Source: Psychroserpens sp. SPM9 (lineage in GTDB: Bacteria; Bacteroidota; Bacteroidia; Flavobacteriales; Flavobacteriaceae). Taken from it: DNA of 64,000 nucleotides. This document shows, piece by piece, positions 17,989 through 25,597 of this stretch (the stretch's first letter is position 1; the number at the start of each line of letters is the position of its first letter). The stretch spans positions 1 to 64,000 of the forward strand of contig NZ_JANZNR010000005.1 in the NCBI RefSeq assembly GCF_025153525.1. Reading direction: 5' to 3'. The position numbers and the translations under genes were made by a program. The notes below the pieces were generated by a model. It worked only from the letters and a program-made list of their open reading frames with translations, had not been told where the DNA came from and made no database searches.

Positions 17989-20154
17989 TTACTTTCTTTT
18001 AAGACTCATATCTCGCATTCGTTTGATCACTTTAGCATAGTGTTCTGCTAGTTTTTGACCATTCTCAGGTGTTGGGTTTTCGATGGCTTCCATAAGGTAA
18101 GGAAATTTGGAAAAATCGAATTCACTCGTCTCAAATTGCGCTTTAATTTTTTGGGATAACTGTCTGAGTTGTTCCTGCTGATTTTTTGATGGATCAACCA
18201 ACTGATCCTTAATATTGACAATATTTATCTTGTCAGAATTGGTTGGCATTTTCTCATCCAAATCGTATAAATCAACTTTAAAATCTGGGTCTAATTTAGC
18301 CAAGCTCAGCTGCATTAAATTTATAGTCTGTTGCATTTGTTTAACTGAAGCCGACATGTCATTAGAATTGATACCGACAGCAGTATTAACATATGAAAAC
18401 AAGGAGTCACCTGATGATGTATCCCAAGCCACGCCAATAATGCGTTTATAGTCATCAATCTTCATTAATTCTGGAGATACTGCCATTGCTAAACCATCGG
18501 CATTTCCTGAAGGCAACACATAATCACCTTTATTTACTTTACCAATAACCTTTACAGGAACTTGTCCCATAAACGCAATACGTTCAAACAAATGTTCGTC
18601 TTCTTTTGCGGGCATCGCGCCACTAATTAATGGGTTTTGTGAAACAACCATATAATTTTCGGCAGAGGCAAAAGATTTAGATATTAATCCGCCTCTTACA
18701 CCAACCACATCACCAAAAAACAAAGGTTCATTCTCGTCATATTTTTTTAACCATTCAGCATAATCTGCGCTACCAGATTCAAAAGCAATCCCAATATTTA
18801 TAGCATTATATAAATACCATTCGGCTAATTGAATTCCGTCAATAGACAAATCCACAAAAGCCCAAATTGCATCGTCACAATCACCTGTTGCACAAAGTCC
18901 AGTTGCAGCAGCGAGATTCACTCCGAAGCGTTGAATTGAGACTGCAAAATCCATGGTATAATGATAAGCAGTAAATGAAAAGTCATTCGCATAAAACTGA
19001 TTTTCAAACACATCATTTATAAGGGCATCGGGATCAAAATTAAATTCGGGAGCAGGCGTAAAATCTATAAATAAATCGATTAAATCGCCAACACTTGGCG
19101 GATCAATAATATCCAATAAAAAATCTAATGCTATCGGCTCCAAATAATCATTCCCTTCAATACGCCCTCTTGCCTGGCCATTGTTACTAAAAAACGTGAT
19201 ATAATTATTATCTCTATCAGGTTGATCTTCAGTTAATCTAATGGCTATACCTTGGCTACTACCCTGCACTTGAAACGGATAAGAATTGTAACTATTTTGA
19301 GTGGCATTGACTTCTGCATTGATTCTAACACGGTTGTTAAAAAGACTGACGCCTTCTACTTTCAAATCATCATTTAAATCGGTTCTTCCGTCCACATTTA
19401 AATTCCCTGACAGATTGGATAAATTGGCATTATTTACATTAAATGCATTATTAATATTGGTGATTCCATCTGCCGTTAAGGTATTTAAACTCGAATGTTG
19501 ATTGACTGTCAAATTATCAAATACGCCATCGGTAAAGAAGGCCGTTCCGAACACATATAAATCACCCGAAAGTGTCGTTGTACTTTGATTATTGACATTA
19601 AAATCACTTTCTATATTCGTTTCACCGTCTACCGTTAGTGTTCCAGAAAGGTTTGTCGGACTTTGATTATTGACCGATAAACTATTATTTAAGTTGGTTT
19701 CGCCATCGACATCGAGTGTTGATGTAGCAATGATTTCACGATGTCTCACGTAGGGAATATAAGTCAAATTTTGTTGGCTAAAGGTGATTAAACCATTACC
19801 ATCAAACAAGTCGATTTCAACTATTAACCGCTTTGGATTATCCCAGTAAATTTGATTGAATTCGGAAGGACTTCCGCTGGTTGTGACCCCTTGACCAATC
19901 ATTAAACTTATCATTCCGAAAGGATCGGTTTCTGTTTGATGAGTTTCCTGATACACCACTATACCAGCTCCATCTTCAATTGTAAAACGAACTTCTAGAG
20001 GCTTGTTTGGTACATTATTATTTGGAATATCAACACCTGGAATTTCCTGTGGATTATTATCAATAATAACCGCTTGATAATTGATTCCGTCGGTTTGTGC
20101 AAAGGCATAAATATTGAGTAAAAGACCTGTGATTAATAGTAATTTTTTTTTCAT
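17989..20154 (-). CDS. Modular secreted repeat protein with GINYQAVI N-domain
   Basis: 721 residues, started at ATG 20154 (MKKKLLLITGLLL..AFAQ signal peptide), because an upstream in-frame TTG would add ten residues before the signal. The first 150 residues carry the GINYQAVI..YQETHQTETDPFGMISLMIG domain common in large Bacteroidota surface proteins. Then about five repeats of roughly 26 residues follow a VDGETNLNN-SLSVNNQS-LSG pattern, resembling beta-helical fibre repeats. The C-terminal third is predicted soluble with a helical end (QQEQLRQLSQKIKAQ). No T9SS sorting domain is visible. It is the last gene of a leftward three-gene operon. It resembles tail-fibre repeats but there are no phage genes nearby. 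Confidence 0.8.
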   Translation of the reverse strand: MKKKLLLITGLLLNIYAFAQTDGINYQAVIIDNNPQEIPGVDIPNNNVPNKPLEVRFTIEDGAGIVVYQETHQTETDPFGMISLMIGQGVTTSGSPSEFNQIYWDNPKRLIVEIDLFDGNGLITFSQQNLTYIPYVRHREIIATSTLDVDGETNLNNSLSVNNQSPTNLSGTLTVDGETNIESDFNVNNQSTTTLSGDLYVFGTAFFTDGVFDNLTVNQHSSLNTLTADGITNINNAFNVNNANLSNLSGNLNVDGRTDLNDDLKVEGVSLFNNRVRINAEVNATQNSYNSYPFQVQGSSQGIAIRLTEDQPDRDNNYITFFSNNGQARGRIEGNDYLEPIALDFLLDIIDPPSVGDLIDLFIDFTPAPEFNFDPDALINDVFENQFYANDFSFTAYHYTMDFAVSIQRFGVNLAAATGLCATGDCDDAIWAFVDLSIDGIQLAEWYLYNAINIGIAFESGSADYAEWLKKYDENEPLFFGDVVGVRGGLISKSFASAENYMVVSQNPLISGAMPAKEDEHLFERIAFMGQVPVKVIGKVNKGDYVLPSGNADGLAMAVSPELMKIDDYKRIIGVAWDTSSGDSLFSYVNTAVGINSNDMSASVKQMQQTINLMQLSLAKLDPDFKVDLYDLDEKMPTNSDKINIVNIKDQLVDPSKNQQEQLRQLSQKIKAQFETSEFDFSKFPYLMEAIENPTPENGQKLAEHYAKVIKRMRDMSLKRK

Positions 20155-20165
20155 GATTTGTAGTT

Positions 20166-20813
20166 TTAAAATGGGCAATTGCAATTGGGTAAACTGATAA
20201 TGATTCCGAAACCAAATTGATGTGCTAATAATTTTAATTCTTCTTGATCTGTAGCATTTCCTTTATCGAGTAAGACTGTTTTTCCCAGTGAATAATTTGC
20301 AGTGATATGTGTATTTCTGGATATAGGATACGTCATCATTAATCCGCCTCTTAAAAAGAAAATATGGTTATTAAATTCTTCTTCGCCTACTAAATTGAAT
20401 ACTTGGTTATTGAGGGTTTGGTTCCCTTGTATCAAAAATTCAGCAGAAGCAGTGCCTTTCAGAAAAAAAGAAAAATCTCTGATTCGAAATATTCTAAAGT
20501 CTACTCCTGCCTCGACGCCTAAATAAGTTACATCCCATTCGTAAAAATTGTCTAATAGGCGATCACTTCCAATTGCACCATATCCGTTATAGTTTGCTCC
20601 AATTGAGAAGAATAAAGTTTCATTATGATTTAAAACATCTCTATACCCCATTTTTAAATAATTATTGGGTTTAGATTGCATATTATCCAAACGGACTCCT
20701 AGTGAATTCTTATAATCAAAAGCAGACATGGTTTTTCCTATTTCCATAAATAACTGCTGGCTATTACATAGGTTTGTTAAGGTTACAACCATTAAAAAGA
20801 CTATACGTTTCAT
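20166..20813 (-). CDS. Outer-membrane beta-barrel-like protein
   Basis: 215 residues with a signal peptide ending near CNSQQ, followed by alternating hydrophobic/aromatic strands (LFFSIGANYNGYG, YLGVEAGVDFRIF, FFLRGGLMMTYPI, HITANYSLGK) and a C-terminal FGFGIIISL strand, typical of an eight-stranded outer-membrane barrel. It ends in an odd CNCPF tail. It sits 3 bp after the T9SS cargo gene and 11 bp before the repeat-protein gene, so the three are likely co-expressed. Function is unknown; it may anchor or assemble its operon partners. Confidence 0.75.
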   Translation of the reverse strand: MKRIVFLMVVTLTNLCNSQQLFMEIGKTMSAFDYKNSLGVRLDNMQSKPNNYLKMGYRDVLNHNETLFFSIGANYNGYGAIGSDRLLDNFYEWDVTYLGVEAGVDFRIFRIRDFSFFLKGTASAEFLIQGNQTLNNQVFNLVGEEEFNNHIFFLRGGLMMTYPISRNTHITANYSLGKTVLLDKGNATDQEELKLLAHQFGFGIIISLPNCNCPF

Positions 20814-20816
20814 ACC

Positions 20817-21314
20817 TTATCGTCTCACTAATTTTGCAACTAATAGCTCTGTTCGCATTTGCAATCTAAACAGATAACTTCCCGAACTTAAATCCCCAAA
20901 ATTTATAATTAAGCTCTGCATTGGTTGAAACGTTTTGTCATAAACCAAACGCCCTAGTATGTCGTGTACTGTAACTGTTATCACATCAATAATGGGCTCT
21001 TGAAATTGAACATTGACATGATCAACAAATGGATTGGGATAGAAAAAACCCAAAAGATGAGTATCCAGATGTTCTGAAATGAGTGAAACATCAAGTGGTT
21101 GTAAAAACCCTTGACGCAAACTATAGTTATTTGCATTGTAGGTACGAATAACACTTTGCTGACCTATACTTTCTTGTATATAATAACTTTTTGCGTTTGC
21201 AAATACAAGATGAGTTGATCCTTGAATCCCTAAAGATTCCCGTTTTAAAGTTTGTGCAAATCCTAATGAACCGATGAGCATTAAACTTGTAATAATCCAG
21301 TTTTGATATGACAT
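20817..21314 (-). CDS. Short T9SS cargo protein with C-terminal sorting domain
   Basis: 165 residues from ATG 21314 (MSYQNWIITSLMLIGSLGFAQ signal peptide). Longer in-frame starts exist but would bury the signal. After a short middle region (QESIGQQSVIRTY, LRQGFLQPLD), the last 80 residues are a type A T9SS sorting domain (FFYPNPF..VTVHDILGRLVYD..SSGSYLFRL). Almost the whole mature protein is therefore sorting domain plus a 60-residue head, which is unusually small for a cargo. It is the first gene of the leftward operon, divergent from the TPR/LuxR-type regulator; a GTCCAC direct repeat lies 67 bp upstream. Confidence 0.85.
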   Translation of the reverse strand: MSYQNWIITSLMLIGSLGFAQTLKRESLGIQGSTHLVFANAKSYYIQESIGQQSVIRTYNANNYSLRQGFLQPLDVSLISEHLDTHLLGFFYPNPFVDHVNVQFQEPIIDVITVTVHDILGRLVYDKTFQPMQSLIINFGDLSSGSYLFRLQMRTELLVAKLVRR

Positions 21315-21380
21315 AATTAACACGTTTAATTTTATCGAAGGTAGGACAGGCTCATGCTTAAAAAAAGAAAAAAAGACGAT

Positions 21381-21398
21381 GTCCACCCTTTGTCCACC
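21381..21398 (+). promoter_or_regulatory. GTCCAC direct-repeat operator, upstream copy
   Basis: GTCCACCCTTTGTCCACC contains two GTCCACC half-sites starting 11 bp apart (21381, 21392), one helical turn. It lies between the divergent surface-protein operon (start 21314) and the regulator gene (start 21545). A near-consensus minus-strand -7 element TACCTTCG (21343-21336) puts the site about 50-70 bp upstream of the operon's likely transcription start. The same arrangement recurs twice after the regulator gene. Confidence 0.55.
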
Positions 21399-21544
21399 AC
21401 CAAAAAAAACCTTCAAATAAAAAAAGAAGGATCTTTATAATACGTCAAAAAGGCGTAAAAAAATATTATTAACAAATTGATTTTCATCGTATTAAATAAT
21501 TTTAAGAATTGTTTGTATTTTAGAGAATCTAACCACCACAAAAC

Positions 21545-23479
21545 ATGGAATCAAAAACAAGCACTAGAAATGTCCCAATTTCAAAATTTCAGAATAATGT
21601 CTACTTTGAGGTGGACAAACTCCTTTTTTTAATTTTCATTTTGACCTTTGGAATGCATTTGAATTTAAATGCTCAGTTTGATAAAAAAATAGACAGCATT
21701 CAGCAAAGAATTAATTCCGCAGAAAATGATAGCATAAGAGCTACCGAACAATTAACGCTGGCGGAAATGATTATCTATCAAGATCCTCAAAAAGCCAAAG
21801 CGTATATTGATAGTGCTGAAACTATTTATCAAACCAAAACCTACGAACGAGGATTTGCAAACTTATATGCAGTAAAAGCAAATTATGCATATACTCAAAG
21901 TGATTATGAATCTGCCATGACCTATTTAAATCGATCTGGTGATGAGTTCATGAAAATTGGTGATACGCTTTTAGGCTTAACCATAAAATCAAATGTTATT
22001 ATTACAATGAACGGACTGTCTAAACCTTTGGATAGTATAGAAAAAGCAATGAACGCCATTGAACCTTTAATTATCAAATACCAAGATTCGTCTTTAATGG
22101 CTACGATGTTAGGACATAGAAGTGACATGGCATTAGAAAAAGGTCATAGAAATATTGCTTTGGCAAAGATGTTAGAAAATATTGAATTGAGGGAAGCCTT
22201 TAAAGACTCTGCGTATTTACCGCAGGTTTATTATAAAATAGGCGTACTATACCTCGAGATGTTTGACTATGAAAAAGGTATTGAGCAATTTGACATTGGA
22301 ATCAATATATGTGATGACGTTGGTCAAAACAATTTAAAAGCACAACTGCTCCGGATGAAAGCTTTAGGATTAAAGCAACTCAAGCGATATGATGAATCTA
22401 AAATAAATTATGAAGCAGCTTTAGAACTCTCTAAGCGCATAAATCTAAGAAGAAACATTGCGAAAACATATATACAATTAGCTGAGCTAGAAATGGATCA
22501 AGGCAACTTTACTCAAGCCAAAAATTATCTCAATGCATATGATAAACTTGCCGATGATATTAAGATTGGAGCAGTTTTATATGATTATAACTTAACAAGT
22601 GGTCAGTTAAATTTAAAAATAAATCAGCCTAAAGCTGCCTTAGCTAATTTAGATTATTGCTTAGAAGTTGCCGAGTCATATAATTCGTTTAGAGATATTA
22701 GTTGGTCAAAGTTATATCGATCTCGAGCACTTAAACAATTAGGTCGATTAAATGAAGCATACAATGAATTGCAAGAAAGTAGTGATGCAAAGGATTCTCT
22801 AAATAATTATTTAAGAACAAGTTTATCAGAAGAACAAAAAATAATCTATGAGACTAATAGAAAAGAGAAAGAAATTGCGCTTCAAAAATCTGAAATCGAG
22901 TTATTAAGAGAGAAAGAGAAAGTTACCAAGGGAAGGCAATTGTTGTTAATAATTGGAATTAGTTCTCTTTTATTGCTTGGCGGATTAGTCTTCTATGGAT
23001 TACGTCAAAAAATGAGACGACAAAAAGCTGAAAAAGAAAAAGTTGATGCCTCATTAGAGTTTAAAGAAAAAGAACTAACAACACATGCTTTACATCTCGC
23101 ACACAAAAATGAAGTTTTACTCGATCTAAAATCTCAATTAAAAGAGTTAAAATCAACTTCTGATAATTCTAGAAACTATCAAAAGGTGATCAATACTATC
23201 AATTTGGATATTAATAATGATAACAACTGGGAACAATTTAGAACCTATTTTGAAGATGTTCACAAAGGCTTTAATGCCAAAGTGATGAAAAGCTATCCTG
23301 GGGTTTCTACCAACGATTTAAGACTCATGTCATTACTTAAAATGAACCTGTCATCAAAAGAAATTGCTAACATTTTAAACATTTCAACCGAAGGTGTCAA
23401 AAAAGCACGGTATCGTCTACGTAAAAAACTCAACTTATCAACAGAAGACTCCTTACAAGAATTAGTTATTGAATTGTAA
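21545..23479 (+). CDS. Membrane-tethered TPR / LuxR-type HTH transcriptional regulator
   Basis: 644 residues. An N-terminal signal or membrane segment (about 26-44) precedes tetratricopeptide-like repeats (about 50-430) that should face the periplasm. A coiled coil leads into a second membrane helix (about 466-487, LLLIIGISSLLLLGGLVF), then a cytoplasmic coiled coil and a C-terminal LuxR/sigma-4-like helix-turn-helix (about 590-644; LRLMSLLKMNLSSKEIANIL, STEGVKKARYRLRKK). Such proteins are common next to surface-protein genes in flavobacteria and are thought to pass periplasmic signals directly to DNA. Here GTCCAC direct repeats lie on both sides, making the flanking operon and the 23706 lipoprotein gene likely targets. 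A single half-site (GGTGGAC, 21610-21616) lies in its own coding start. Confidence 0.88.
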   Translation: MESKTSTRNVPISKFQNNVYFEVDKLLFLIFILTFGMHLNLNAQFDKKIDSIQQRINSAENDSIRATEQLTLAEMIIYQDPQKAKAYIDSAETIYQTKTYERGFANLYAVKANYAYTQSDYESAMTYLNRSGDEFMKIGDTLLGLTIKSNVIITMNGLSKPLDSIEKAMNAIEPLIIKYQDSSLMATMLGHRSDMALEKGHRNIALAKMLENIELREAFKDSAYLPQVYYKIGVLYLEMFDYEKGIEQFDIGINICDDVGQNNLKAQLLRMKALGLKQLKRYDESKINYEAALELSKRINLRRNIAKTYIQLAELEMDQGNFTQAKNYLNAYDKLADDIKIGAVLYDYNLTSGQLNLKINQPKAALANLDYCLEVAESYNSFRDISWSKLYRSRALKQLGRLNEAYNELQESSDAKDSLNNYLRTSLSEEQKIIYETNRKEKEIALQKSEIELLREKEKVTKGRQLLLIIGISSLLLLGGLVFYGLRQKMRRQKAEKEKVDASLEFKEKELTTHALHLAHKNEVLLDLKSQLKELKSTSDNSRNYQKVINTINLDINNDNNWEQFRTYFEDVHKGFNAKVMKSYPGVSTNDLRLMSLLKMNLSSKEIANILNISTEGVKKARYRLRKKLNLSTEDSLQELVIEL

Positions 23480-23500
23480 ATCAATTTATTACATAACAAA

Positions 23501-23517
23501 GTCCACTTGTTGTCCAA
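23501..23517 (+). promoter_or_regulatory. GTCCAC direct-repeat operator, downstream copy 1
   Basis: GTCCACTTGTTGTCCA has half-sites starting at 23501 and 23512, again 11 bp apart. Its second half overlaps an 8-bp inverted repeat GTCCAATA/TATTGGAC (23512-23532). It lies just after the regulator stop and upstream of the 23706 gene. Confidence 0.5.
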
Positions 23518-23533
23518 TAAATAGTATTGGACT

Positions 23534-23551
23534 GTCCACGAGTTGTCCACC
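23534..23551 (+). promoter_or_regulatory. GTCCAC direct-repeat operator, downstream copy 2
   Basis: GTCCACGAGTTGTCCACC has half-sites starting at 23534 and 23545, 11 bp apart. Relative to the predicted start near 23596 it occupies about -62 to -45, a normal activator position. Confidence 0.55.
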
Positions 23552-23582
23552 ATCAAAATTTTAATTCATAATAAACACCCTC

Positions 23583-23590
23583 TATGTTTG
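23583..23590 (+). promoter_or_regulatory. -7 promoter element for the cadherin-like lipoprotein gene
   Basis: TATGTTTG fits TAnnTTTG. There is no -33 TTTG, consistent with dependence on an activator bound at the GTCCAC sites just upstream. Confidence 0.45.
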
Positions 23591-23608
23591 TGCTGTCATT
23601 AATTTGAC

Positions 23609-23696
23609 AACCAGTTTTGTGGTGCCTTGCGCTGGTTAGGCTGCAGACTTTACCAGTTGCAAGACGCTACGAAAACTTATTAAAAAACCACAAAAC
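23609..23696 (+). ncRNA. Structured 5' leader RNA (candidate cis-regulatory element)
   Basis: The leader of the 23706 gene can fold into a nested structure: outer stem GTTTTGTGGT (23614-23623) with ACCACAAAAC (23687-23696); inner stem CTTGC-G-CTGGT (23626-23636) with ACCAG-TT-GCAAG (23652-23663). CTGGTT (23632-23637) can instead pair with AACCAG (23609-23614), so two exclusive folds exist. The outer stem ends 9 nt before the start codon. The region is also more GC-rich than its surroundings. It matches no riboswitch class I recognise. Confidence 0.4.
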
Positions 23697-23705
23697 ATTA
23701 GCATT

Positions 23706-24662
23706 ATGAATTTCTTAAACTCCAACCCATTTAAAATAAGCTTTGTCCTAATCACGTCTATGTTTATCACTGTATCATGCAGTAGTGAAGATGATGCTTC
23801 AGATGATTCACCAACAAACACCAATATAGAGGTTTCTATAAATGAATATCCAAACTCTGGAGATCTTATTACTACAGTTACATCCAGTCTGTCAGGTGAC
23901 TTAAGTTTCAGTGTAACATCTCAATCCTTATCTCAAGCATTCGACCTCAACAGCTCTACAGGAGAGTTACGTGTTTTAGATTGGCAATTATATGATTTTG
24001 AAACCAATCCAACTATGACAACATCTGTTGAAATTAGTAATGGAACTGATAGTGAAAATAAGCTTATCATCATTTCAATAAACGATATAGACGATATTGC
24101 TGCGTTTTTAAATAGTTCACTTACTGAATATGAAAACGCTAATGCTGGCGAATGGATTATGGTCACTGAAAGCGAATACAATGACTTAGCTAACTATTTA
24201 TCGCTTGTCACTAAAAGTGGAGCAACAAACGAACATATTTCAAACACTGCAAATATTCAACAAAATTCGGGCAATGCATTATTAGCGAATAGAAATGGTG
24301 ATACAATGCCAGAAGGCAGTTATTTATTTGCGTTTAAATACTATTCTTGGGCAAATAATGTATCTGGAACGAAAGTGAAAGTCTCTGAAGATGATGAATC
24401 CGGTATTTACAATACAGTGGGAACTACACTGCCTCAACATAATGATGAATACAATCATTTTGTTATAAAAGGAAATGCAACAGCAACCAATAACGAAGGA
24501 TATCTAGCCATATTTTCAAACTTAGGTATAGGTTTTAAAAGTATTGAGGGCACTATTTACGGTTGGGGAGACGGAGGCGATACCGACATGATTACCAATG
24601 GTAATATTAACGCCGTGTTTTTATACCAAGGTTTGAGTACCACATTAAAACAATGGGATTAG
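23706..24662 (+). CDS. Secreted lipoprotein with cadherin-like N-terminal domain
   Basis: 318 residues with a lipobox (TVSC, Cys25) and an acidic Asp/Ser-rich spacer. A region of about 100 residues (SLSQAFDLNSSTGELRVLDW, then ISINDIDD) resembles a cadherin or Calx-beta-type repeat. The C-terminal 180 residues (EWIMVTESEYNDLANYLS; YLFAFKYYSW; GNATATNNEGYLAIFSNLGI) form a domain I do not recognise but which looks like a compact beta-rich surface domain. It lies downstream of the tethered regulator with paired GTCCAC sites, a -7 element and a structured leader, so it is the best candidate target. It is followed by a strong terminator. Confidence 0.8.
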   Translation: MNFLNSNPFKISFVLITSMFITVSCSSEDDASDDSPTNTNIEVSINEYPNSGDLITTVTSSLSGDLSFSVTSQSLSQAFDLNSSTGELRVLDWQLYDFETNPTMTTSVEISNGTDSENKLIIISINDIDDIAAFLNSSLTEYENANAGEWIMVTESEYNDLANYLSLVTKSGATNEHISNTANIQQNSGNALLANRNGDTMPEGSYLFAFKYYSWANNVSGTKVKVSEDDESGIYNTVGTTLPQHNDEYNHFVIKGNATATNNEGYLAIFSNLGIGFKSIEGTIYGWGDGGDTDMITNGNINAVFLYQGLSTTLKQWD

Positions 24663-24683
24663 CCAAAATCACGTTAGTTTGTT

Positions 24684-24719
24684 AAAAAGAGTAAGCCTTA
24701 GTGCTTGCTCTTTTTTTAT
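24684..24719 (+). terminator. Intrinsic terminator
   Basis: AAAGAGTAAGC / CTTAGT / GCTTGCTCTTT hairpin (one T-G wobble) followed by seven T, 22 bp after the 23706 gene. Confidence 0.85.
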
Positions 24720-24766
24720 TCTGAAAAAATGACGAACTTGGTTATGAAATTATAATCCATATATAC

Positions 24767-25597
24767 GTGATATTTGAAACACACCCATTAACACCTCCTT
24801 TATCTGAGCATGTCGAATCTATATTTTACTTTAAAAATTTTAAACCTGACCATTCTATTGAACGGGTTGTACCTACAGGACATGTATTTATCATATTTGA
24901 ATTAGATGGTTTTAAACGCCATACTTATGACAATAAGACTCTAAAAACAAACGGTGATTTTTGTAACGTTTGGATTTCTGGAATGCATAAAAACTACCTC
25001 TCTATTTCGGCTCATCAAAATTCTGAAATGCTAGTTATTCAATTCAAAACCATTGGCGCATATCCTTTTTTTAAATTTCCAATTCAAAATTTAAATGATA
25101 AGGTCATTAATGCTGAAGATATATTTGGAAATGATATATTAGAATTAAGACATCAAATTTTGAAACGAAATAAAGTTTCGGAAAAATTCAAACTCACCAG
25201 AGAATGGCTCATTAAAAATTATGATCCTAAAAAAATACCTCACACCTCAATTGTTCATATTTTAAATCTTCTTAAAACAAAATCCGAGCGAGAAAACACT
25301 AGTATTATAGACGCTTATTCTAAATCTCAAAAGCATCTTATTAATCAGTTTAAAACTTACTTCGGTCTTACTCCAAAAGTATTTCATAGAATATTCAGAT
25401 TCAACGATTTACTCCTACAAATACATCAGAAACAAAACCTCGATTGGTCACAAATTGCCTACGAATTTGGATACTCAGACCAATCGCATTTTATAAAGGA
25501 GTTTAAAGCGTTTTCTGGATTTAATCCTCAGGAATTTATAAAATCAGGTTTTCAAAATAATGAACCCAATTTCTTTCCACTAGACAAAAAAGGTTAA
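24767..25597 (+). CDS. AraC-family transcriptional regulator
   Basis: 276 residues, starting at GTG 24767 (no in-frame ATG fits the family N-terminus). The N-terminal 150 residues match the DUF6597/cupin-like sensing domain (HVESIFYFKNF, VPTGHVFIIFEL). The C-terminal HTH_18 pair of helix-turn-helix units covers about 175-265 (SKSQKHLINQFKTYFGLTPK; WSQIAYEFGYSDQSHFIKEF). This is a one-component regulator with unknown ligand. It lies upstream of, and on the same strand as, an SRPBCC gene and a DUF4287/DUF5655 gene, which may be its targets. Confidence 0.9.
   Translation: MIFETHPLTPPLSEHVESIFYFKNFKPDHSIERVVPTGHVFIIFELDGFKRHTYDNKTLKTNGDFCNVWISGMHKNYLSISAHQNSEMLVIQFKTIGAYPFFKFPIQNLNDKVINAEDIFGNDILELRHQILKRNKVSEKFKLTREWLIKNYDPKKIPHTSIVHILNLLKTKSERENTSIIDAYSKSQKHLINQFKTYFGLTPKVFHRIFRFNDLLLQIHQKQNLDWSQIAYEFGYSDQSHFIKEFKAFSGFNPQEFIKSGFQNNEPNFFPLDKKG

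Follow-up and report, generated by a model that had tools for sequence, protein, structure and literature searches.

A putative membrane-tethered one-component regulator, its probable paired direct-repeat operators, and a structured leader RNA at a lipoprotein locus of Psychroserpens sp. SPM9

Regulators of the ToxR/CadC kind unite an extracytoplasmic sensor, a single membrane helix, and a cytoplasmic DNA-binding domain in one polypeptide, an arrangement predicted for the candidate regulator described here. DNA sites of NarL/LuxR-type regulators are usually inverted repeats. Among the lipoproteins of Bacteroidota, the CDC-like (CDCL) proteins are described as two-component lipoprotein toxins, and those of Bacteroides are described as killing related bacteria (PMC11169675). 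The locus studied here lies in a window of 64,000 nucleotides of Psychroserpens sp. SPM9 (Flavobacteriaceae; assembly GCF_025153525.1, contig NZ_JANZNR010000005.1, positions 1 to 64,000), in which three paired GTCCAC direct repeats surround a gene for a protein with tetratricopeptide repeats (TPRs), a membrane helix, and a LuxR-type helix-turn-helix (HTH). A preliminary description of this DNA proposed an unreported one-component signaling system with its operators. Our analysis, with a probability of roughly 0.85, points to a membrane one-component activator that would act on head-to-tail 11-bp repeats, with a downstream lipoprotein gene and a divergent type IX secretion system (T9SS) operon as targets and a structured leader RNA as a second control. 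The paired repeats are very likely the landing sites of this regulator within a conserved flavobacterial module.

The pattern GTCCACNNNNNGTCCA matches only three times in the window, at 21381, 23501, and 23534 on the plus strand, and no match was found in 100 dinucleotide-preserving shuffles of the window. In the complete set of 3,806,363 bases of the genome, all three matches (3/3) lie at the regulator locus, and the reversed pattern matches once. A chance origin of the repeats was rejected on the basis of the shuffles and the uniqueness of the motif in the genome, and a motif scattered over the genome was rejected because every genomic match falls at this locus. The window scan reproduced the three GTCCAC-N5-GTCCA sites of the preliminary description with their coordinates and 11-bp register, and the absence of any other pair in the window extends to the whole genome. 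As described earlier, one site, operator O1 (GTCCACCCTTTGTCCACC, 21381..21398, plus strand), lies in the divergent gap between the T9SS operon and the regulator, and two lie past the regulator stop codon, namely, the distal operator O2 (GTCCACTTGTTGTCCAA, 23501..23517, plus strand) and the proximal operator O3 (GTCCACGAGTTGTCCACC, 23534..23551, plus strand), with O2 preceding O3 by 33 bp (three turns).

The regulator gene (21545..23479, plus strand) encodes 644 amino acids (aa) with a putative signal peptide, a TPR sensor (about aa 44 to 430), a putative membrane helix (about aa 465 to 486; like the signal peptide, from hydrophobic stretches read by eye), a predicted cytoplasmic linker, and a probable C-terminal LuxR/NarL-type HTH. 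In this layout, the TPR sensor would be periplasmic and the protein would span the membrane. A Pfam search at an E value of 0.001 returned only TPR and GerE matches, so that sensor and DNA-binding domain stand in one chain without a kinase or receiver, as expected of a one-component regulator. The TPR matches exceed the Pfam cut-offs, which bears out that part of the earlier domain assignment; the GerE score is just under its cut-off, and the HTH assignment therefore leans on the alignment with relatives. When 15 relatives are aligned, the C-terminal third holds most of the invariant columns, and membership of the HTH in the GerE family is likely from sequence. All NCBIfam matches of the regulator are far under their cut-offs, including a histidine kinase match over the linker (22.8 of 600 bits), and no PDB sequence matched the output-domain profile at an E value of 0.01.

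The best evidence for recognition of these sites by the regulator comes from the co-variation between half-sites and the recognition helix, since half-site letters that change with the helix tie the regulator class to them. In a table of 63 regulators with an operator and a box, KKAR is followed by Y in 51; these go with GTCCAC-like half-sites, and C is the third letter of both in every case. In 11 regulators Q follows instead, the third letter of the first half-site is then always A, and 10 of these have GTACCC twice. The one regulator with N has the operator GTCCCC/GTCACC. Two associations, that of Q with A as the third letter of the first half-site (11/11 versus 0/52; Fisher, 1.6e-12) and that of a missing E/D ahead of the conserved Gly with T as the fourth letter of both half-sites (3/4 versus 0/59 with E/D; P = 1e-4), carry P values that overstate their strength, since the rows of the table are related and preselected. 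In the tree, the GTACCC rows make up two separate sets, and the two GTCTAC cases, in which residues ahead of the Gly are changed, fall into different clades. The variable residues probably correspond to those through which the recognition helix of NarL contacts bases.

Paralogous and more distant loci show the same period. All six paralogous loci that were examined, including one in the genome of SPM9, have TGTACCCCTTTTGTACCC, again with an 11-bp period, and GTACCC-N5-GTACCC occurs once in that genome, ahead of the paralogous T9SS operon. In a wider survey, genome contigs were scanned with the output-domain alignment, and the best 80 of 160 relatives correspond to 75 loci, mostly of Flavobacteriaceae, with one of Saprospiraceae (L127) and one of Cyclobacteriaceae (L149). 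A motif-free count of 7-mer direct repeats near these 75 regulators was highest at period 11, with 93 repeats, versus 25 to 69 for each remaining period between 8 and 15. Operator-like repeats make up 65 of the 93 and are absent from all the remaining periods. An operator-like period-11 repeat was found in the scanned stretch of 55 of the 75 loci. In 299 family genomes, GTCCACNNNTTGTCCA matches 60 times, versus 6 times for the reversed pattern. Two distant regulators (L078 at 6689 and L079 at 7633) adjoin a divergent lipoprotein gene of the window's family, with GTCCAT-N5-GTCCAT-like sites.

Within the genus, 23 genomes were compared, including that of SPM9, and in seven of them (SPM9, G004, G005, G007, G008, G017, and G022) a close regulator separates the T9SS operon from the downstream genes. 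All seven (7/7) carry the exact motif both before and after the regulator, so that the sites foreseen at orthologous loci are present there. One of the two downstream operator copies is degenerate in G007 and G008, and the rearranged operon of G004, G007, and G008 has an extra, slightly degenerate operator copy ahead of its second unit. Five motif places outside regulator loci were fetched, and L072, L073, L075, and L081 among them contain no open reading frame (ORF) matching the regulator or the T9SS-operon proteins.

The box TAnnTTTG at -12 to -5 is described as the sigma-A box of Flavobacterium psychrophilum (PMC9723704). A -7 box was accepted when five or more of the 6 fixed letters agreed with TAnnTTTG, and transcript starts were deduced by placing the box at -12 to -5. 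The -7 box of the lipoprotein gene (TATGTTTG, 23583..23590, plus strand) begins 49 bp after the O3 start, which places O3 at -61..-45 and O2 at -94..-78 of the inferred start at 23595. Counted from the far end of O1, the -7 box of the divergent T9SS operon (TACCTTCG, 21336..21343, minus strand) lies at a distance of 54 bp, and O1 then occupies -66..-50 of the inferred start at 21331. The earlier placement of each site near -45 to -68 of a start consequently holds for O1 and the site at 23534 and fails for the distal site at 23501. We infer that O1 belongs to the T9SS operon on the minus strand; perhaps it also serves the regulator's own promoter on the plus strand, where a weak -7-like box (GATCTTTA, 21430..21437, plus strand) 49 bp after the O1 start suggests autoregulation. 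Among 134 distinct operators, distal ones included, the forward box offset peaks at 49 bp (54/134; the runner-up, 48 bp, has 8), and the reverse-strand offset peaks at 54 bp (33/134; the runner-up has 4). The 5-bp half-turn shift between the two orientations would fit an asymmetric head-to-tail complex that faces the polymerase alike on both sides.

This geometry also bears on the sign of the control. The operators could be real and yet serve a repressor function or a protein encoded elsewhere, since position alone does not prove activation and an AraC-type gene lies at 24767. However, the operators stand upstream of the promoter core, at -61..-45 in the case of O3, which is the usual place of an activator, and the half-site letters track the helix of the adjacent regulator, including that of the paralogous pair in the same genome. 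We consider this alternative very unlikely and favor activation by the adjacent regulator.

The message of the lipoprotein gene would begin with a structured 5' leader of about 110 nt (23595..23705, plus strand), consisting of a terminal stem-loop, P1 (23595-23608), which begins at the inferred +1, and a long hairpin, P2 (about 23613-23677). Ahead of the start codon, ACCACAAAAC (23687-23696, plus strand) is complementary to the 5' arm of P2 (23614-23623). An alignment of 49 leaders contains 17 predicted pairs, 8 of them with changes on both sides; 97.6% of its cells are paired, and none of 500 shuffles reached as high a value for either pairing or double-sided changes. The covariation score is 0.306, versus 0.190 in shuffled alignments (0/500) and at most 0.130 in slid versions. 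The folding of the window leader is 3.4 standard deviations below shuffles, and among five folded leaders that of L118 is only 1.6 below. Rfam 15 has no match at E values up to 1 over 20500-24800, and an already catalogued RNA was rejected accordingly.

A covariance model of the leader has one sense match in the genome of SPM9 (E value, 5e-16), plus a weak antisense shadow, and 57 matches, antisense duplicates included, in 33 of 299 family genomes. Thirty leader loci were compared, with one match per genome; G129, G250, and G321 were left out, the antisense duplicate L189 was dropped, and 13 of the 30 are training sequences. The pattern GTNC-N7-GTNC stands exactly 49 bp ahead of the box position in 23 of the 30 loci and in 12 of the 17 nontraining loci. 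The exact motif is present in 24 of the 33 genomes with the leader versus 21 of the 266 without it, an overlap counted by hand with the two draws of 299 genomes taken as identical. Three leader copies occur in one 16-kb locus (L152), two of them with differing operators (GTACCC and GTCCAC) at 49 bp and different lipoproteins behind.

The complementarity of ACCACAAAAC with the P2 arm is a possible switch. In 37 of 53 loci, 8 to 9 nt separate ACCACAAAAC from the start codon, and the region of ACCACAAAAC forms 10 of 10 pairs with the P2 5' arm in 41 of 53 loci (G-U allowed). With nearly even odds, the leader may instead be a mere stability or translation-enhancing element, in which the match between ACCACAAAAC and the arm is incidental: a 5' terminal stem commonly stabilizes a message, A-rich sequence is nothing unusual upstream of start codons in Bacteroidota, and 10/10 pairing also arises in 39 of 1,400 shuffles of the prestart stretch, G-U pairs again allowed. 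Against a role in stability alone stand the frequency of full pairing among the 53 loci and the long hairpin, which is conserved and co-varies beyond the shuffled and slid controls.

Different sensors stand on a constant output domain. Among the eight regulators at this locus in the seven genus genomes, sensors of different types are only 16 to 21% identical, whereas the output domains of the same pairs are 75 to 93% identical, so that different signals may feed the same operators. In G005 (L064, 2205-6015), two tandem regulators with near-identical output domains (93%) and unrelated sensors (17%) stand between the same operators. The identity of the lipoproteins tracks the sensor type (67 to 88% within the window's type, 85% between G005 and G017, and 57 to 60% between types), a match that could also stem from species relatedness. 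In G010 (L074, 7832 onward, reversed strand), the regulator and the lipoprotein are gone, which constitutes a natural deletion; the T9SS operon is kept, with a single operator that has a box on each side, a leader remnant, and no lipoprotein gene behind.

These observations raise the alternative that the repeats are mainly recombination sites for the exchange or loss of the sensor-regulator-lipoprotein segment and that their regulatory look is secondary. Unlike sensors atop similar output domains and the varying downstream genes of different loci are in line with it, and the single operator of G010, which joins the T9SS side to the leader remnant, is as expected of a loss between repeats. However, recombination gives no reason for the fixed 49-bp and 54-bp box distances, the strand logic, or the co-variation with the helix, and 18-bp repeats may recombine accidentally without having that purpose; recombinase genes at the loci were not searched for. 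Recombination as the main role is in our judgment highly improbable, and an operator function is preferred.

The target gene (23706..24662, plus strand) encodes a 318-aa lipoprotein with an N-terminal cadherin-like domain and a conserved C-terminal domain that ends in YQGLST..KQWD and has no Pfam match of its own. Its predicted model has a predicted local distance difference test (pLDDT) score of 80, and the Pfam scan found no PF01289 Thiol_cytolysin domain in this protein. An AraC-type regulator gene with DUF6597 (24767-25597, plus strand) lies just 3' of it. An ORF of at least 200 aa follows 47 of 61 distinct leaders with an operator. The 49 proteins compared are complete, at least 200 aa long, and free of duplicates, and they include that of the window; four stand behind a leader without a GTNC-N7-GTNC operator (L126, L130, L131 at 4734, and L152 at 801). 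They form families of 18 (551 to 587 aa), 13 (220 to 355 aa, including the window's), 10 (615 to 684 aa), and 7 (739 to 759 aa) members, plus a singleton. Their alignment has an invariant Cys column, and 42 of the 49 match a simple lipobox pattern. Thiol_cytolysin (PF01289) matches 10 of the 49 and Cadherin 7 of the 49; the three Thiol_cytolysin members that were inspected singly all belong to the 615- to 684-aa family.

When modeled (mean pLDDT, 80), the 551-aa family resembles aerolysin-type pore formers in Foldseek. Its best match is 1w3a, a pore-forming mushroom lectin (E value, 2.6e-10; probability, 1.00; template modeling [TM] scores, 0.30 and 0.46). Identity is about 12%, and TM scores do not exceed 0.47 among the matches listed; the 551- to 587-aa family may be aerolysin-like in the sense of a fold resemblance. 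The 739- to 759-aa family (L115, L118, L119, L125, L135, L140, and L148) has no convincing Pfam match, and two of its members were also run on NCBIfam. Small ORFs of 121 to 128 aa behind an operator and leader (L117, L142, L145, L153, and L169) lie outside the family comparison, and L088, L090, L094, L095, L103, and L066, five of which are Winogradskyella loci, have an operator and leader with no ORF of 60 codons behind.

On the other side of O1, the first gene of the divergent operon (20817..21314, minus strand) encodes a small protein that ends in a C-terminal T9SS type A sorting domain, the profile matches of which exceed their cut-offs (TIGR04183, 37.6 versus 23 bits; PF18962, 40 versus 27). 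The second gene (20166..20813, minus strand) encodes 215 aa without a family match and is kept in orthologous operons. The third (17989..20184, minus strand) encodes a fibre-like protein of 721 aa from ATG 20154 (731 aa from TTG). A phage-family search with six proteins gave one short match, of aa 517 to 580 of the fibre-like protein, to a family of unknown function.

Taken together, the data suggest the following mechanism. The periplasmic TPR domain would sense an envelope or extracellular signal, which, through one membrane helix and the cytoplasmic linker, would pair two LuxR/NarL-type HTH domains head-to-tail on one face of the DNA, so that each domain would read its own GTCCAC half-site at an 11-bp spacing. 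From its place at -61..-45, the regulator would activate TAnnTTTG promoters, that of the downstream lipoprotein gene with two operators and, from the opposite strand and 5 bp further, that of the divergent T9SS operon; its own gene is a possible further target. The structured leader of the lipoprotein message may add posttranscriptional control. The earlier proposal of a one-component TPR/LuxR membrane regulator with operators of its own draws sequence-level support from the restriction of the motif to the locus, its presence at orthologous loci, and the co-variation among 63 regulators. The -7 boxes, the RNA leader, the lipoprotein families, sensor swapping, possible autoregulation, and the paralogous GTACCC system go beyond the earlier picture.

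Several points weigh against this interpretation. The GerE match of the regulator (22.1 bits, E value of 1.2e-4) falls short of the curated cut-off of 23.5, the autoregulatory box GATCTTTA is a poor match, and the rows of the helix-operator table were required to have both half-sites starting with GT plus a box at 49 bp. Repeats of period 12 are likewise rather common near the surveyed regulators (69), with none of them operator-like. A regulator lies upstream in 28 of the 30 leader loci, and none was found within the fetched 1.5 kb for the other two. Seven of the 30 lack the pattern at 49 bp, two having it at 81 to 82 bp only, one at 63 bp, and four nowhere; GTCTAC or mixed half-sites at 49 bp are visible by eye in these four. 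The motif occurs in 21 of 266 family genomes despite the lack of a leader match. Behind the 61 distinct leaders with an operator, 8 ORFs are shorter than 200 aa, and 6 leaders have no ORF of 60 codons by the criterion applied.

On a broader scale, the locus may exemplify a two-layer, plug-in control of the surface lipoproteins of Flavobacteriia, weapons among them. Periplasmic TPR sensors would be swappable, orthogonal codes (GTCCAC, GTACCC, and GTCTAC) would separate neighboring systems, the P2 5' arm would pair alternatively with its hairpin partner or with ACCACAAAAC, making the leader a translational switch, and new lipoprotein genes would be slotted in behind. This picture is tentative, and we think it is clearly likelier to fail than to hold. 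For the lipoproteins of Flavobacteriia, CDC-like proteins included, the module supplies a regulator, an operator code, and a leader RNA that can be put to the test. It also provides natural specificity variants of an HTH that apparently reads direct repeats, sensor swapping could reveal signals, and the leader is a candidate new RNA family.

In an incomplete library of open full texts, which lacks most subscription papers and all bioRxiv preprints, no listed paper treats the regulator class, the operator, or the leader in its title or the opening of its abstract, and within that scope the description of the system as unreported stands. The words "LuxR" and "tetratricopeptide" do not occur in the main text of PMC11169675. 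Compared with ToxR/CadC, which have an N-terminal OmpR-type winged helix, the candidate regulator has a TPR sensor and a C-terminal LuxR/NarL-type HTH. With NarL/LuxR proteins it shares the GerE match over the HTH, albeit just under the Pfam cut-off, and it differs from them in its head-to-tail 11-bp direct repeats and in having no receiver domain. The likeness to the aerolysin/epsilon-toxin-type beta pore-forming fold concerns the predicted model of the 551-aa family and the fold only. The common ground with the CDCL toxins is PF01289, carried by 10 of the 49 downstream proteins, and the window's own lipoprotein belongs with neither the CDC-like nor the aerolysin-like proteins; in contrast to the described CDCL systems, CDC-like and unrelated lipoproteins here share one promoter type and one leader.
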